From contig CATLOT010000001.1 in assembly GCA_950054155.1 (NCBI GenBank), forward strand, positions 62,001 to 126,000: a DNA stretch of 64,000 nt, written 5' to 3'. This stretch comes from an uncultured Bacteriovoracaceae bacterium. Its GTDB lineage: Bacteria > Bdellovibrionota > Bacteriovoracia > Bacteriovoracales > Bacteriovoracaceae. This document shows, piece after piece, positions 5,043-63,005 of this stretch. The notes below the pieces were generated by a model that worked only from the letters and a program-made list of their open reading frames with translations, had not been told where the DNA came from and did no database searches. Made by a program: the position numbers and the translations under genes. Every line of letters begins with the position of its first letter. Within the stretch, counting starts at the first letter, position 1.

Positions 5043-5378
5043 TTAGAATTCACTCGATAGGATTTTATCTGCAAGAGAGTCATAGTCGACTTTGTAAGTT
5101 CCAGCGTTAATCTGCTCCTTGAGGCGAGCAATCTTTTCGCTGTTATCAACTTCAGGTGCCTGGTCGACAGCTTTTTTAATCTTTGCAAAGTCTCTTACAG
5201 CACTTGGGATCTCAACTTTCGCATGAGACCCAGTTGAATGATTAAGTTCCTTAATTCTCTTAGGCTCATTTCTTTGTATATAACCAGAGTTTAGACCATT
5301 GGTTCCGATTTTACTTTTTGCAGTCTTACTGCGGGGAAAGAAGCTAGAGCGTGATGCATTTGGATCTACTTTACTCAT
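5043..5378 (-). CDS. flgM: FlgM, anti-sigma-28 factor
   Basis: FlgM holds sigma-28 (FliA) inactive until the hook is complete and it is exported. The 111-residue product has a basic, disordered N-terminal half and the FlgM C-terminal helices: a V-R-D-F-A-K-I-K segment, then SEKIARLKEQINAGTYKVDYDSLADKIL, with the family's G-x-Y-x-V/I-D motif. The ATG at 5378 is preferred over an upstream in-frame start because GGGAGG lies six bases before it and the family start fits. It overlaps the flgJ stop by 8 bases (ATGAGTAA), indicating translational coupling. Its presence means a sigma-28 checkpoint operates in this organism. Confidence 0.93.
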   Translation of the reverse strand: MSKVDPNASRSSFFPRSKTAKSKIGTNGLNSGYIQRNEPKRIKELNHSTGSHAKVEIPSAVRDFAKIKKAVDQAPEVDNSEKIARLKEQINAGTYKVDYDSLADKILSSEF

Positions 5379-5829
5379 TATTTGCCTCCCGGCCGATAGA
5401 AACAGATTCGTGTTTCTCAATTTTAGTTGGGCTTGGTGGCCCTTCCATTTCGATATTATTCTTTTTAATTAAACCTTTATCCTTATGAGCTGCAAAAGCT
5501 GCTAACGCCTCAGGATTTCTAAATTTTTCAGGATAGATCTCATCTAGAATGAGTTTCTGAATTCCTAAGCCTGAATTAACTTCGCTAAGCATCTTTGCTT
5601 GCTCTGTTTGGTTTAAATCTTTGTAATAATTCATAGCAGAGTTATCTTCGCCGCTATTGCCGATGGTGGATTTCATTTGCTTAAGCATGTATTGAGCAAA
5701 TTGTTGCTCAAGTCCTTGAGCTACTTTTTTGTATTCTTGAGGAACATAACGAAAATCATCTTTGATTTTACGAGCTTTCTTAGCTTGTGAATTATTGTGA
5801 TTCTCAATGTGAGGACGATGTATTTTCAC
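5371..5829 (-). CDS. flgJ: FlgJ-type rod-binding protein (single domain)
   Basis: This matches the N-terminal rod-capping domain of FlgJ: residues about 30-105 contain YKKVAQGLEQQFAQYMLKQMKSTIG and a DLNQTEQAKMLSEVNSGLGIQKLI segment, equivalent to the F-E-x-x-F/L-x-x-x-M-L-K and G-x-G-I/L-A-x-x-I signature. At 152 residues it lacks the muramidase (glucosaminidase) domain of the gamma-proteobacterial protein, as in alpha and delta groups. A separate enzyme must therefore open the peptidoglycan for the rod. The C-terminal 45 residues are Pro/Glu/Lys rich and look disordered. A gap of 115 bases with a hairpin and a promoter-like sequence separates it from flgI. Confidence 0.88.
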   Translation of the reverse strand: MKIHRPHIENHNNSQAKKARKIKDDFRYVPQEYKKVAQGLEQQFAQYMLKQMKSTIGNSGEDNSAMNYYKDLNQTEQAKMLSEVNSGLGIQKLILDEIYPEKFRNPEALAAFAAHKDKGLIKKNNIEMEGPPSPTKIEKHESVSIGREANNE

Positions 5830-5926: not shown

Positions 5927-5945
5927 ATACGAAAAAATTTCGTAT
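5927..5945 (-). terminator. AT-rich hairpin at the flgI stop
   Basis: An 8-bp perfect inverted repeat (ATACGAAA 5927-5934 and TTTCGTAT 5938-5945) with a 3-base loop touches the flgI stop codon. On the minus strand it is followed by ATTTT. The stem is AT-rich, so termination may be only partial, giving polarity between ring and junction genes. Confidence 0.4.
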
Positions 5946-6940
5946 TAAATTAGTTCGATATCTCCAATAAGCGCCCCGTTTCTTTTAAGTGCTTGAAATA
6001 TCGAAATTAAGTCCTCTGGTGTAGCACCAAAAGCATTTAAACTTTTAACGAGATCATTAAGTGTAGTTTTTTTGTCAATCATGTAGAGCCTTTCAGGGCT
6101 GTCGCTTTCGCCACCTTTAACCTCGAGGGTCAGATCCCCATGGCTTACAGCTACTGGGTTAATTGTGACTTCGCCTCCGGCAACGATAGTTCCTGTTCTT
6201 TCATTGATGACGATTTTGGCTTTTTGATCACTATGGACCTTAAAGTTTTCAAGAATTGCCATTAACTGTACGACTTTGCGTTGGTAGTGAACGGGAACAA
6301 TAAGGTCTATTGTTGTGGCATCTTTGCTTGTCGCATATTTTCCGCCAAGCTCCTGATTGATCGTTTTCTCAATTCGGGCTGCCGTCGTAAAGTCGGGATT
6401 CTTAAGACTAAGGCGGAGTGATTTCTTGTCGTGAAAAGCAAAGTTAATTTCTCTTTCAATAGTTGCTCCGTTTGCAATTGTTCCTGTCGTGGGGAATGCT
6501 TTTCCTCGATTGAGGCCACCAATGGAAACGTTTCCGCTTGCCACGGCGTAGACATTACCGTCCCCCCCTTTAAGTGGAGTAACGAGTAAGGTCCCACCTG
6601 CGAGGCTACTTGAATTACCAATACTGGAAACATTAATATCAATGGATTGCCCAATTCGCCCAAAGGCTGGAAGTTTAGCTGTAACAATAACTGAAGCTAC
6701 GTTTTTACTAGCAACCTCCTTTTGGGGATTAAGACCTAATTTTTGAAACATCATTTTAAGAGAAGAATCTACAATTTCGCCACCTCCATCACCAGTGCCA
6801 TTTAGTCCAATGACAAGACCGTATCCGATAACAGGGTTTTCTCGAACACCTTTAACATGAACGAGGTCCTTTAGGCGGCTCATTTTCGCTGAGGTGTGAA
6901 ACGAGAGGCAAAGCAATAGTGAGAGAAAAGTGATTTTCAT
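5945..6940 (-). CDS. flgI: FlgI, flagellar P-ring protein
   Basis: FlgI forms the periplasmic P ring around the rod in peptidoglycan. The 331-residue precursor has a Sec signal peptide (MKITFLSLLLCLSFHTSA) and the diagnostic start of the mature protein, RLKDLVHVKGVRENPVIGYG followed by LVIGLNGTGDGG. Downstream motifs include NVASVIVTAKLPAFGRIGQ and the C-terminal IFQALKRNGALIGDIELI. It is somewhat shorter than the usual about 365 residues, mostly through shorter middle loops. It follows flgH by four bases with an AGGTAAC SD. Confidence 0.96.
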   Translation of the reverse strand: MKITFLSLLLCLSFHTSAKMSRLKDLVHVKGVRENPVIGYGLVIGLNGTGDGGGEIVDSSLKMMFQKLGLNPQKEVASKNVASVIVTAKLPAFGRIGQSIDINVSSIGNSSSLAGGTLLVTPLKGGDGNVYAVASGNVSIGGLNRGKAFPTTGTIANGATIEREINFAFHDKKSLRLSLKNPDFTTAARIEKTINQELGGKYATSKDATTIDLIVPVHYQRKVVQLMAILENFKVHSDQKAKIVINERTGTIVAGGEVTINPVAVSHGDLTLEVKGGESDSPERLYMIDKKTTLNDLVKSLNAFGATPEDLISIFQALKRNGALIGDIELI

Positions 6941-6944
6941 AATG

Positions 6945-7727
6945 TTACCTAATGACCGTTACTTGGTTTTCAATAATACGATTACTATTGACTGTATCGT
7001 CAGTAAGGACATCTCTTCTTGTGACGAGAGCCTGTACTTCAACAACACGTTTTCTATTTTTGTAGAGAACATTCTTACGCCCTCTTAGAAGCAAGTGATC
7101 ATCATTGATTTCTTCAACAACGACACTTGAAATACGGTCATAAATCTTGTCCGTACTGTCATCAACCTTGTCATCCTCTTTGCTCGGCGCTGTCGCTGCA
7201 GATGCGGGTGCCTTACCTGGGTCACCCTCTTTTTGAGCACCCTCTTTAGCTTTGATCGGAGAGGGGAAAGCTCTTTTGAGTTCTGCTGTGATTTCGTTCT
7301 TAAGTTTTCCAGCTACTTTGATAAGAATGATGTCACCGTGAGACTTTTGATCTTCTTCAGTAAAGAGGTAGTTATTTCTTCCTTCCACACCTGACCAGAG
7401 AGAACCATCTCCTTGGTTGTCCGCCAGGTCATCAGCTTTGTAGCGTTTCTTATCTTCACTGGGATTACGGTAATCACGCTTAACCGCGGGTACGACATAG
7501 GGGTTACTTTCACTGTTGATCATCGGCTTACTTGAAAGAGAGCGGTGTGACTGTCGTCTCGGTTGCATGCTCTGTTGACCTCGGTACATGGCAAACTGAT
7601 CACGCTTTTGCGGAGGAGGATTGTAACCATCTTGTTGATCAAACTCTCTATGCATTTGAGCGATGTAATTTGAGCAACTTGCTAATGAAAGTGCTGCAAT
7701 AATGAGGGTAAGTTTAATCAAATTCAT
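6945..7727 (-). CDS. flgH: FlgH, flagellar L-ring lipoprotein
   Basis: FlgH forms the outer-membrane ring of the basal body. The 260-residue precursor has a lipoprotein signal with the lipobox SLASC (Cys about residue 18). The FlgH core contains SLWSGVEGRNNYLFTEEDQKSHGDIILIKVAGKL, corresponding to the family's S-L-W...L-F-x-D-x-R-A-x-x-v-G-D-i-l-t-V segment. It ends VEVQALVTRRDVLTDDTVNSNRIIENQVTVI, close to the usual G-x-V-R-P-x-D-I...N-T-I...I. About 60 residues after the lipobox are Gln/Arg/Pro rich linker, and a second Ala/Pro/Lys-rich linker lies near 165-190. The start overlaps the flgA stop (ATGA). FlgH shows that the flagellum crosses an outer membrane. Confidence 0.93.
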   Translation of the reverse strand: MNLIKLTLIIAALSLASCSNYIAQMHREFDQQDGYNPPPQKRDQFAMYRGQQSMQPRRQSHRSLSSKPMINSESNPYVVPAVKRDYRNPSEDKKRYKADDLADNQGDGSLWSGVEGRNNYLFTEEDQKSHGDIILIKVAGKLKNEITAELKRAFPSPIKAKEGAQKEGDPGKAPASAATAPSKEDDKVDDSTDKIYDRISSVVVEEINDDHLLLRGRKNVLYKNRKRVVEVQALVTRRDVLTDDTVNSNRIIENQVTVIR

Positions 7728-8596
7728 AGTTGAACCTCAACCTTGTTAAAGTCTACAATTTTTCCGATAACAGTTTTATTTGTGCGATTATTTTTCAGTC
7801 TGATGACCTGTCCAAGCTTTCCCGATTGATGAGGCGTTGCTTTCCCTTCAAGGCGAAGAGAGTTTTTCTTGAGAAGAATTGTAACGGGTTGTCCAACTCT
7901 TACCAGGTTTACAGGAGTGATATCACTGTAGTGAATAGCCTCTCCTTTGCTTTTCCCTTTGTTGAGCTTATAGAAAACAATTTGATTTATATTAGTAAAA
8001 AGTCGGTCCGGGTTTTTACTATAGATTGTTTTAACTTCAAGTTGAGAAGGGCTTAGAGGCTGATTAGAGACGCCAATATTTTCACTTACAACTAACGACT
8101 TTGTTTTAACGGCGAGATCACCTTTAAACCATAAGCTTTTATAGGAGTTGTCGATGGGATTAACGATGGTCCCCTTGATTGTCTTAGAACCGGTGTGGGA
8201 GCAATTATTGCATTCAAGAGAAAGAGTATCACTCTTATTAAGGGCAATTAACGTTTGGTTGGCATGAGAAAATTTTAAATTAGTTACTTTCCAGTCTTTG
8301 GGTTTAGTAAGACGACTGTTGATATAGTCTGAAAGTCTTGAAATGGTAACGCTCTTTTCAAGAGTAATGCTCGGTAGTTCTACACGGAGAATGTGGTGAT
8401 TTAAGTTTCCTTTGAAGTCAGAAAGGAAGTTTAAAAAGCGATTGCTTTGATCATCATTACAATTCTTAAATACGATATGTGATTTAAGTTCCTGGAAGTT
8501 AGGTTTGTTTTCAAAAACCAAAGTCTGAGGTGTACTAACAAGACAGCCAAAAGACTTGAATGAAATGAATAGGAAGGTGAGGGTTTTCTTTATCAT
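7724..8596 (-). CDS. flgA: FlgA, P-ring assembly chaperone
   Basis: FlgA is a periplasmic chaperone for P-ring polymerisation. The 290-residue product has an N-terminal hydrophobic signal (IKKTLTFLFISFKSFG). Its C-terminal half contains the SAF-like and FlgA_C pattern: ITPVNLVRVGQPVTILLKKNSLRLEGKATPHQSGKLGQVIRLKN followed by NKTVIGKIVDFNKVEV, matching the family's R-x-G-d/q...G-x-x-G-d/q-x-I-r-V-x-N...G-x-V. The family's N-terminal half is poorly conserved and cannot be aligned by eye. Position between flgG and flgH agrees with the distal rod/ring cluster. It starts one base after the flgG stop. Confidence 0.88.
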   Translation of the reverse strand: MIKKTLTFLFISFKSFGCLVSTPQTLVFENKPNFQELKSHIVFKNCNDDQSNRFLNFLSDFKGNLNHHILRVELPSITLEKSVTISRLSDYINSRLTKPKDWKVTNLKFSHANQTLIALNKSDTLSLECNNCSHTGSKTIKGTIVNPIDNSYKSLWFKGDLAVKTKSLVVSENIGVSNQPLSPSQLEVKTIYSKNPDRLFTNINQIVFYKLNKGKSKGEAIHYSDITPVNLVRVGQPVTILLKKNSLRLEGKATPHQSGKLGQVIRLKNNRTNKTVIGKIVDFNKVEVQL

Positions 8597-8597
8597 A

Positions 8598-9431
8598 TTA
8601 CCTAATTGTATTTACGGTTTGAAGTATTTCATCAGCGACTTTCATGACTTTACTGTTCATTTCATAAGCCCTTTGGGCCTTAATAAGTTCTGTCATTTCA
8701 TTCATAATGCTAACGTTTGAAGACTCAAGAGCCCCCTGTCTAATCGAGCCAGACTTAGCTTCCCCAGCAACATTTTGAATGGGAACACCACTAGAACGGC
8801 TTGGTTTATAGTTATTTCCACCAAGCGCAACGAGCCCAGTATTGTTCGTGAAGGTGAAGACAGGGATTTGACCAACGTTGGTCGGTTCAACTTGGTTTTT
8901 GATGAAGGCTTCAACAGTTCCTTCTTCAGTAATATTCACACTTATGGTTTCTGGCGGAAATTGAAGATTGGGAATGATCGCAAAGCCACTTCTGTTGACG
9001 AGGACTCCCTGACTATTTACATTGAAGCTTCCATCTCGTGTATAAGCAATCGTTTGATCAGGCATAATTACACCAAAGAAGCCCTCACCGTTGATCATAA
9101 GATCAAAGGGGTTATTTGTTATTTGAGGCGAACCTTGAGTAAATTCACGAGAGACGCCGGATACCTTAGAGCCACTTCCCACTTGATGACCAATGTTGTG
9201 ATAGCTATCGGCTCCGGTTTGTGAGCCTTGCGCTTTAATTGTTTGATAGTGAAGAGATTCAAATTCTACTCTCTCTTTTTTAAAGCCATTAGTATTAACG
9301 TTCGCGATATTATTGGAGATAGTTGAAACATGAGCCTCTTGAGCGGCCATTCCTGTGGCGGCAGTATTAAGAGCTCTTGAGAGGCCGAATGATGAATGAC
9401 TAAAAATAAAGAGAAGTAAGATAATTCTCAT
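8598..9431 (-). CDS. flgG: FlgG, distal rod protein with Sec-like leader
   Basis: FlgG builds the distal rod. After residue 16 the sequence is typical: SRALNTAATGMAAQEAHVST, then ISNNIANVNTNGFKKERVEF, the ITNNPFDLMINGEGFFGV motif and the C-terminal QGALESSNVSIMNEMTELIKAQRAYEMNSKV helix. What is odd is the first 16 residues, MRIILLLFIFSHSSFG, which look like a cleavable Sec signal where FlgG normally has only M-I. The ATG at 9431 has a GAGG SD six bases upstream, and no ATG, GTG or TTG occurs closer to the family start, so the leader appears to be translated. FlgG is usually exported through the flagellar type III gate without cleavage. It abuts flgF with no spacer. Confidence 0.95.
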   Translation of the reverse strand: MRIILLLFIFSHSSFGLSRALNTAATGMAAQEAHVSTISNNIANVNTNGFKKERVEFESLHYQTIKAQGSQTGADSYHNIGHQVGSGSKVSGVSREFTQGSPQITNNPFDLMINGEGFFGVIMPDQTIAYTRDGSFNVNSQGVLVNRSGFAIIPNLQFPPETISVNITEEGTVEAFIKNQVEPTNVGQIPVFTFTNNTGLVALGGNNYKPSRSSGVPIQNVAGEAKSGSIRQGALESSNVSIMNEMTELIKAQRAYEMNSKVMKVADEILQTVNTIR

Positions 9432-10274
9432 TTAGAACCTCGCGATATCGTTGTAGGCCTTGTTGGCCATATTGTCGTATGTCTTAATAACTCTTTGAAT
9501 AGATTCTAAATTTCGATGCGCCTTAATAAGATTACTCATCTCTTCGACGGTATTAACGTTAGAACCCTCAAGTGCACCTTGAATAATGGCTGTTTTTGGC
9601 TCGTTCTTTAGAATATTTCGGGTGTCATTATTCATAAAAAGAGAGTTGCCCTCTTTCATGAGAACCTCTGTGTTCTTGAATTCAACAACACTAAGCCTTG
9701 CAACCAAATTACCATTTTGAAAAACTTCGCCCTTCTGATTGATGTTGATTGGTCCCTTTTGAAGTTTGATGCTTCTTTCTTGGGGACTGGGAACCTGCTT
9801 ATTTACCTCAATAACTTCATTACCATTGCCAACTTCAGGAAGGTCTAACTTGGCCATGACTTTCATACCTTGGTCAGTAACCATTTCACCTTGTTGATTT
9901 ACGGAGAAGTTCCCACGTCTTGTGTAACGGATGCCGTTGGGACCGTGGACTTCTAAAAAGCCTTTGCCATTAAGAGCGATATCGAGCGGGTTATTGGTCG
10001 GGCGAATTTGACCTTGAGTGAAATTCGTAAAACTTCCATCAACTACAGGATGCGCATGTTCGGCCCCATAGCTACGGTAGAAGTCCTCTGGTGCCCATTC
10101 CTTATTAGGAAGATCGATATCTGTGCCTTTTTCATAAGCTGATAAGTATTCACGAAAGACCATACGGTCTTTCTTAAAAGCTGTTGTATTGGCATTGGCC
10201 ACGTTGTTGGCGATAGTCTCAACCTTCCTTTGCTGAGCTTTTGCGGCCGATAGGGGAACCCATAGTTCTTTCAA
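9432..10274 (-). CDS. flgF: FlgF, proximal/middle rod protein
   Basis: FlgF is a rod protein of the flg_bbr family. The 280-residue product from the chosen start reads KELWVPLSAAKAQQRKVETIANNVANANTTAFKKD, then GQIRPTNNPLDIALNGKGFLEV and the C-terminal QGALEGSNVNTVEEMSNLIKAHRNLESIQRVI helix. The start is taken as TTG at 10274 because GGAGG lies six bases upstream and the family begins here. A longer in-frame reading would add 14 residues with no similarity. It is the first gene of the leftward flagellar operon. FlgF versus a second FlgG-like rod protein is decided by the L-W-V-P-L/V-S start and the order flgF-flgG. Confidence 0.9.
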   Translation of the reverse strand: MKELWVPLSAAKAQQRKVETIANNVANANTTAFKKDRMVFREYLSAYEKGTDIDLPNKEWAPEDFYRSYGAEHAHPVVDGSFTNFTQGQIRPTNNPLDIALNGKGFLEVHGPNGIRYTRRGNFSVNQQGEMVTDQGMKVMAKLDLPEVGNGNEVIEVNKQVPSPQERSIKLQKGPININQKGEVFQNGNLVARLSVVEFKNTEVLMKEGNSLFMNNDTRNILKNEPKTAIIQGALEGSNVNTVEEMSNLIKAHRNLESIQRVIKTYDNMANKAYNDIARF

Positions 10275-61439: not shown

Positions 61440-63005
61440 ATGACCACAGACGTACTGCAAGAAAAACGTAATCTTTTGGCCGAACTGAGAAAAGAGGCCG
61501 AATTGGGTGGTGGTGCTGCCCGTATCGAAAAACAACACGCTCAAGGGAAATATACGGCTCGAGAGAGAATCGAGCGCATCTTAGATCCAGGCTCTTTTAT
61601 TGAGTTTGATCGCTTTGTTGTTCATGGGTGTACTTCATTTGGAATGGAGAAGACCAAGTATCTTGGTGATGGTGTTGTCACTGGTATCGGTGAAATCAAT
61701 GGACAGAAAGTGGCCCTTTATTCACAAGACTTTACTTGTTGGGGGGGAGCACTTGGTAATGCTCATGCAAAGAAGATTTGTAAAATCATGGACTTTGCTC
61801 TTGAGAATAGAATACCGATTATTGGAATTAATGACTCAGGTGGTGCACGAATTCAAGAGGGCGTAGAGTCTTTGGCCGGTTATGCGGACATCTTTTATCG
61901 CAATGTTAAGTGTTCTGGGGTGATCCCGCAGATTTCACTTATTATGGGGCCGTGTGCTGGTGGGGCGGTTTATTCGCCTGCGATTACAGACTTCATTTTT
62001 ATGGTTGATAAGTCCTCTTATATGTTTGTAACTGGACCTGATGTCATTAAGACTGTGACTCATGAAGAGGTTACAAAAGAAGACCTTGGTGGGGCAGCCT
62101 CACATAATGAAAAGTCTGGTGTTGCTCAATTTAAGTGTGCTGACGAGGATGACTGTTTTGAACGCGTGCGTGAGCTCATGGCCTATGTACCTGCATCAAA
62201 CTATCGCAAGCAGACACTTAAGGAAACAGGTGACAATGTTTTCAGAGATAATACTAAGCTTAAGGATTTGATTCCAGCTAATCCTAAGAAACCGTATGAT
62301 ATGAAAGAAGTGATCATTGACGTCGTTGATGATGGCTCTTTTCTTGAGGTTCATAAAGACTTTGCGAAGAATATCATCTGTGGTTTTGCTTCAGTTGGTG
62401 GAATTAAAATAGGTATCGTAGCAAACCAGCCTCAAGTTCTTGCTGGGGTTCTGGATATTGATTCTTCAAGAAAGGCTGCGCGTTTTGTTCGTTTTTGTGA
62501 TGCTTTCGATATACCAATTCTAACACTTGTTGATGTCCCTGGTTTCCTTCCAGGTACAACACAAGAATATGGTGGAATTATTACTCATGGTTCAAAGCTA
62601 CTCTTTGCTTATGCTGAGGCCACTGTTCCTATGATTACGCTTATCACACGTAAGGCATATGGTGGTGCATATGATGTTATGGCATCAAAGCATATCAAGG
62701 CGGATGTAAACCTTGCTTATCCTACTGCTGAAATTGCTGTGATGGGTGCTGACGGGGCAGTAAATATTATTTTTAGAAATGAACTTAAGGGCCTTGAGGG
62801 TGAAGCTTATGACAAAAAGAAAGCTGAGCTTGTAAAAAATTACGAGGAAAGGTTTAACAATCCTTATCGTGCGGCAGAGCAAGGCTATTTGGACGCTGTT
62901 ATCTATCCTGAAGAAACACGTAAACGACTCTATGAGTATTTTACAGTTCTAAAAGATAAGAAGGTTGAGTTACCACAGAGAAAACACGGGAATATCCAGC
63001 TATGA
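61440..63005 (+). CDS. Acyl-CoA carboxylase, carboxyltransferase (beta) subunit
   Basis: The enzyme transfers carboxyl from biotin to propionyl-, acetyl- or methylcrotonyl-CoA. The 521-residue product has the crotonase-like halves: KQHAQGKYTARERIERILDPGSF, SQDFTCWGGALGNAHAKKI, INDSGGARIQEGVESLAGYADIF and IMGPCAGGAVYSPAITDF in the N half. DVPGFLPGTTQEYGGIITHGSKLLFAYAEATVP and RKAYGGAYDVMASKHI are in the C half, with oxyanion Gly-Gly/Ala-Gly pairs. The pattern is that of propionyl-CoA carboxylase PccB. ATG 61440 follows AGGAGG by seven T. Overlaps the next gene by ATGA. Confidence 0.95.
   Translation: MTTDVLQEKRNLLAELRKEAELGGGAARIEKQHAQGKYTARERIERILDPGSFIEFDRFVVHGCTSFGMEKTKYLGDGVVTGIGEINGQKVALYSQDFTCWGGALGNAHAKKICKIMDFALENRIPIIGINDSGGARIQEGVESLAGYADIFYRNVKCSGVIPQISLIMGPCAGGAVYSPAITDFIFMVDKSSYMFVTGPDVIKTVTHEEVTKEDLGGAASHNEKSGVAQFKCADEDDCFERVRELMAYVPASNYRKQTLKETGDNVFRDNTKLKDLIPANPKKPYDMKEVIIDVVDDGSFLEVHKDFAKNIICGFASVGGIKIGIVANQPQVLAGVLDIDSSRKAARFVRFCDAFDIPILTLVDVPGFLPGTTQEYGGIITHGSKLLFAYAEATVPMITLITRKAYGGAYDVMASKHIKADVNLAYPTAEIAVMGADGAVNIIFRNELKGLEGEAYDKKKAELVKNYEERFNNPYRAAEQGYLDAVIYPEETRKRLYEYFTVLKDKKVELPQRKHGNIQL

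Follow-up and report, generated by a model that had tools for sequence, protein, structure and literature searches.

The distal rod protein FlgG of an uncultured Bacteriovoracaceae bacterium is preceded by a Sec-type leader, and comparison of the homologous sequences confirms, beyond what the earlier note on this DNA had proposed, that such a leader is conserved in a large clade and coupled with decay of the motif by which rod and hook subunits dock at FlhB. The established teaching is that the type III gate, followed by the central channel, is the sole way in for flagellar axial proteins; in the leader-bearing group, however, FlgG has, on this evidence, probably changed its export route. The leader, its conservation and position, the accompanying shift in ribosome site and the decay of the docking motif can all be read directly from the sequences.

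The window (the whole stretch of DNA analysed: 64,000 nucleotides, positions 62,001 to 126,000 of contig CATLOT010000001.1, GenBank assembly GCA_950054155.1) encodes on its minus strand, in order, flgF, flgG, flgA, a flgH-like gene, flgI, a flgJ-type gene, two small genes and flgK (Table 1). The assignment of flgG rests on a full-length match to TIGR02488 (310.3 bits against a curated cut-off of 252.75; residues 20-275), on the gene order flgF-flgG-flgA-flgH-flgI and on its being the single copy in the genome. A phmmer comparison with solved structures aligns residue 21 of the query with residue 5 of Salmonella FlgG; the leader thus amounts to exactly 16 extra residues, with residue 17 falling at canonical residue 1. 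It has the positively charged n-region, the hydrophobic core and the small residues at -3 and -1 of a Sec / signal peptidase I substrate, with a signal peptidase I site predicted after G16.

Table 1. Features of the flgG locus, in window coordinates
Feature	Position	Strand	Remarks
flgG	8598-9431	minus	277 aa; begins MRIILLLFIFSHSSFG then LSRALNTAATGM
Shine-Dalgarno GAGGT	9437..9441	minus	spacing 5 bases to leader ATG
FlgG start codon ATG	9431-9429	minus	only candidate start
FlgG leader MRIILLLFIFSHSSFG	9384..9431	minus	n-region positive (R2); hydrophobic core IILLLFIF; C-region S-F-G
distal rod protein FlgG, mature part, from LSRALNTAATGM to the stop	8598..9383	minus	TIGR02488
degenerate gate-recognition motif FESLH	9249..9263	minus	mature residues 41-45; Salmonella FEDLL
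flgF	9432..10274	minus	no leader; intact motif FREYL; internal control
flgA, P-ring chaperone	7724..8596	minus	Sec-type leader; gene next after flgG
flgH-like L-ring protein	6945..7727	minus	lipobox-type leader (LSLASC); divergent
flgI, P-ring protein	5945..6940	minus	Sec-type leader; positive control for leaders
FlgJ-type protein	5371-5829	minus	152 aa; weak Rod-binding match below Pfam cut-off; no peptidoglycan hydrolase domain

The start of the gene leaves little room for an alternative. The flgF stop codon (TAA, 9434-9432) directly adjoins the flgG ATG; no ATG, GTG or TTG lies between this ATG and the canonical FlgG start in the window, the codon at canonical residue 1 being CTC, and no further methionine occurs before residue 12 of the conserved core. 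The earlier note's statement that the ATG has a good Shine-Dalgarno sequence and no closer competitor is thus borne out. Start assignment also bears on the upstream neighbour: flgF probably begins at a TTG (MKELWVPLSAAKAQQ) rather than at the start of the longer open reading frame, relatives supporting MKELWVPLSGA or MKNIWVPLSGA at this point. Downstream, the flgH-like gene has a best NCBIfam match of 28.5 bits, far under the cut-off, with its position and lipobox-type leader fitting FlgH. Elsewhere in the genome we find FlhA, FlhB and FliP, together with two signal peptidase I genes. FlgB, FlgC, FliE, FlgE, FlgD and FlgK of this genome are all leaderless, as is FlgF; the comparison with FlgF and FlgE that the earlier note called for sets FlgG apart from both. 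A second, leaderless FlgG exported by the type III route was considered and rejected, the genome having no other FlgG.

Gathering the flgG loci of relatives, and removing near-copies of more than 98.5% identity, gave 136 distinct Bdellovibrionota FlgG sequences. A hydrophobic leader stands before canonical residue 1 in 65 of these and is absent from the other 71; the leader is thus conserved and not private to this genome, in keeping with the earlier note's description of a Sec-like sequence ahead of the family start. Leader sequences differ freely from one another (MRTMIFLSFLLTTDCFA, MKYLILFSLLLSLKTFA, MKQFIALCSFFLAFNSQA), their design remaining constant. A small residue (A, C, G, S or T) occupies -1 in 60/65 and -3 in 53/65, whereas only six have one at -2, where F, H, Q and Y are frequent; in three of the five exceptions at -1 a small residue is found one place further on (TYA/M, SLA/M, IYS/M). 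The likeness to FlgI leaders that the earlier note had remarked on extends to length (median 20 residues for FlgG against 21 for FlgI of the same group), N-terminal net charge (+1.46 against +1.45) and hydrophobic maximum (3.04 against 2.94). In 43 of 61 leaders a home-made cleavage-site score peaks at canonical residue 1; in absolute value, 36/61 exceed the best FlgF N-terminus (the negative set), a separation that is incomplete, so that the case rests on the position statistics.

Ribosome-binding sequences follow the leader. In 59/65 sequences the leader start has a better Shine-Dalgarno match than the canonical start; four are ties, and in two the leader start is the poorer. The median length of the match is 5 both at the leader start and at the methionine of leaderless species, and 3 at the internal methionine. 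A start codon is missing from the canonical position in eight of the 65, the window's FlgG included, and most of the leader-bearing set keep a methionine at canonical residue 1 or 2. Residue 1 has changed ten times in leader-bearing and three times in leaderless lineages, as expected if its role as a start has gone. Judged from these start regions, the ribosome site moves with the leader and the long form is the form translated.

On a FlgG tree from which the leader columns were excluded, the leader follows the branching more closely than chance allows: it changes state five times, where shuffled labels need 41 changes on average. It is present in 54 of the 55 rows of one Bacteriovoracaceae clade (SH-aLRT 97), a large group of predatory-type relatives of Halobacteriovorax. 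Halobacteriovorax marinus and Bacteriovorax sp. BSW11_IV are among the leader-bearing isolates. In a second small clade (L103, L086, L090, L155) leader-bearing and leaderless rows are mixed, and in a 75%-complete assembly from another family (L116) MITVIICLMINSSFA precedes FlgG; the leader apparently arose once or twice more outside the large clade, more than one origin being likely, with moderate support. In Bacteriovorax stolpii-like genomes, as in the other families sampled, FlgG begins at the canonical methionine. Leaderless homologues, which the earlier note had raised as an objection, do therefore exist, but they form separate lineages with a start and Shine-Dalgarno sequence of their own at the canonical methionine.

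Several further observations belong with this survey. One sequence within the leader clade (L142, genome G048) is leaderless (L/MFQALNT), has a strong Shine-Dalgarno sequence at the canonical methionine and an intact FEDLL motif; it has apparently lost the leader, a reversal to the ordinary form. The flagellar sheath was rejected as a cause of the leader, since leaderless Bacteriovorax stolpii and Bdellovibrio are sheathed too (PMC7175336). Two genomes carry a seventh rod/hook-family gene, apparently a second FlgE-like hook protein (422 and 437 aa; G008, C1:1503775-1503864; G016, C3:707437-707523). Lastly, a FlgG match is absent from several near-complete genomes of one genus of the family (G038, G129-G131), which is probably non-flagellated.

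Docking of rod and hook subunits at FlhB relies on a gate-recognition motif, small hydrophobic residues close to their N-terminus serving to open the gate (PMC8983047; PMC10936197). The motif corresponds to residues 39-43 of FlgE (PMC10936197), and in Salmonella FlgB its phenylalanine, F45, fits a hydrophobic pocket by which FlhB reads it and on which secretion critically depends (PMC9307174). Our own alignment places the equivalent in Salmonella FlgG at F41-E-D-L-L45; its distance of seven residues from the preceding conserved F34 matches that in FlgB and FlgE. In the window's FlgG a histidine replaces the hydrophobic fifth residue, such that the sequence departs from the motif of early type III substrates. 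This is part of a wider pattern: Fxxx[hydrophobic] at residues 41-45 is intact in all 71 leaderless FlgG and broken in 46 of the 65 with a leader, where altered forms include IDDLG, MEDLL, SEDLL, IQDLS and LQDLH; the remaining 19 are intact.

To place these changes we used a tree built without the motif columns, with a total length of 19.1 for leaderless and 14.6 for leader-bearing lineages. At position 41 we count 12 changes among leader-bearing lineages and none among leaderless ones, despite the greater length of the leaderless tree. This is the top-ranking column of about 260 (binomial P = 8e-5, or about 0.02 when corrected for all columns), with positions 39, 43 and 45 also within the top seven. 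A phylogenetic-pairs test of leader against motif yields three to five independent contrasts, too few for a significant sign test. FlgF keeps the motif in 61/61 leader genomes, and in this genome FlgB (FEAAL), FlgE (FQDVL) and FlgF all have it intact where FlgG does not, indicating a loss specific to the leader-bearing protein rather than a general change in the gate. A C-terminal export signal has also been reported in FlgE (PMC10936197); its residues (I, R and Y at FlgE 376/380/382) are kept in the window's FlgG (ELIKAQRAY), a point against a change of route, though they may be structural there.

We consider it likely, from the sequence comparisons, that Sec exports FlgG, that signal peptidase I trims it back to the usual N-terminus and that the mature subunit enters the rod from the periplasmic side. 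FlgG would be made only in the long form and targeted to SecYEG; cleavage after G16 would restore the normal FlgG N-terminus and, falling exactly at the old N-terminus, would leave the packed D0 helices of the rod unchanged. The mature protein would then join the rod tip from the periplasm, bypassing both the FlhAB-FliPQR gate and the rod channel, with FliE, FlgB, FlgC, FlgF, FlgE and the junction and late proteins staying with type III export. After such a switch the FlhB-docking motif of FlgG would be free to decay. We infer Sec targeting, cleavage and outside-in assembly from the small-x-small pattern at the canonical N-terminus, the FlgI-like features of the leader and the decay of the docking motif, which together favour the Sec option of the two that the earlier note had offered. 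It is also likely, we think, that FlgG has left the type III route altogether in most of the clade, that its distal rod is built of Sec-delivered subunits which signal peptidase has processed and which join the tip from the periplasm, that the motif decayed in consequence and that the switch took place more than once. We know of no rod subunit that adds from the periplasm, which counts against this account. In Salmonella the P- and L-ring proteins arrive by Sec and rod/hook subunits enter the periplasm at this stage (PMC13344023), such that a periplasmic FlgG would not be foreign to the system.

The other option of that note was a hydrophobic type III signal. In a fuller version of this reading the signal would be a strong one that opens the gate and replaces the lost docking motif, FlgG then passing through the rod channel with its leader attached. 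For gate opening, early subunits require small hydrophobic residues near the N-terminus, separated from the motif by at least about 27 residues (PMC8983047), and a hydrophobic extension could supply this and explain the decay of the motif. It would, however, leave unexplained both the small-x-small pattern fixed at the canonical junction and the FlgI-like charge, length and hydrophobicity, and the mature N-terminus has kept hydrophobic residues of its own. Moreover, an uncut hydrophobic tail of 16-30 residues would have to fit within a rod whose N-terminal helices are tightly packed along the axis, around a channel 13 angstrom wide (PMC5288503); such packing makes it hard to see how the finished rod could accommodate a leader left uncut, and we regard this explanation as distinctly unlikely. 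The leader could alternatively be an uncut anchor holding FlgG at the inner membrane, in line with its hydrophobicity and with signal peptidase cleavage being a prediction; yet the small residues at -1 and -3 are fixed at the junction, the core lengths are FlgI-like and a rod subunit has to leave the membrane, making an anchor hardly credible.

Dual routing, with FlgG travelling partly by Sec and partly by type III and a short form arising from the internal methionine where one is kept, is distinctly unlikely. The methionine retained by most leader-bearing sequences and the 19 intact motifs speak for it; indeed, some of those 19 proteins may still use, or have only recently left, type III export, and their motifs fit recent or incomplete switches as well as dual routing. 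Against this, the internal methionine seldom has a matching Shine-Dalgarno sequence, a short form is impossible in the eight sequences lacking a start there, the window's among them, and the motif is broken in the majority. Automatic annotation often calls over-long starts, which raises the prospect of an ordinary FlgG with a mis-called start or, as the earlier note allowed, a sequencing error. The chance of either is negligible: the window offers no alternative start, the Shine-Dalgarno sequence tracks the leader, and conservation of the leader across loci, in 65 distinct sequences, refutes both.

Should delivery of FlgG by Sec hold, part of the flagellar axis can be assembled from the periplasm, and export and assembly are separable in the building of the rod. 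The leader-bearing clade would then amount to a natural experiment, distinguishing FlgG residues that serve gate docking from those that serve the rod. Two matters become testable: the need for channel delivery in rod growth, and how the rod-to-hook order holds when FlgG does not compete at FlhB.

Our search of the open-access literature found no report of a rod with Sec-exported FlgG, or of such a switch in any flagellar axial protein. The nearest precedent is FlgG of Candidatus Liberibacter asiaticus, listed with a signal peptide and positive as a PhoA fusion in E. coli (PMC5167687); compared here by its published description, that work is a prediction screen with admitted false positives, and, unlike the case of the window's FlgG, describes no added leader and draws no tie to rod export or motif loss. 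FliP (PMC12403130) likewise belongs to the flagellum and has a signal peptide whose cleavage site is known, but is a membrane component of the gate rather than an exported rod subunit. The Sec-exported FlgI and FlgA resemble FlgG in the length, charge, hydrophobicity and end pattern of their leaders, differing in that they are non-axial and have never been users of the type III gate. Salmonella FlgG, finally, agrees with the window's protein in its full-length TIGR02488 match, its domains and the alignment of mature residue 1; the known protein, however, is a leaderless type III substrate with the motif FEDLL, to which the window's FlgG has added a leader and in which the motif now reads FESLH.
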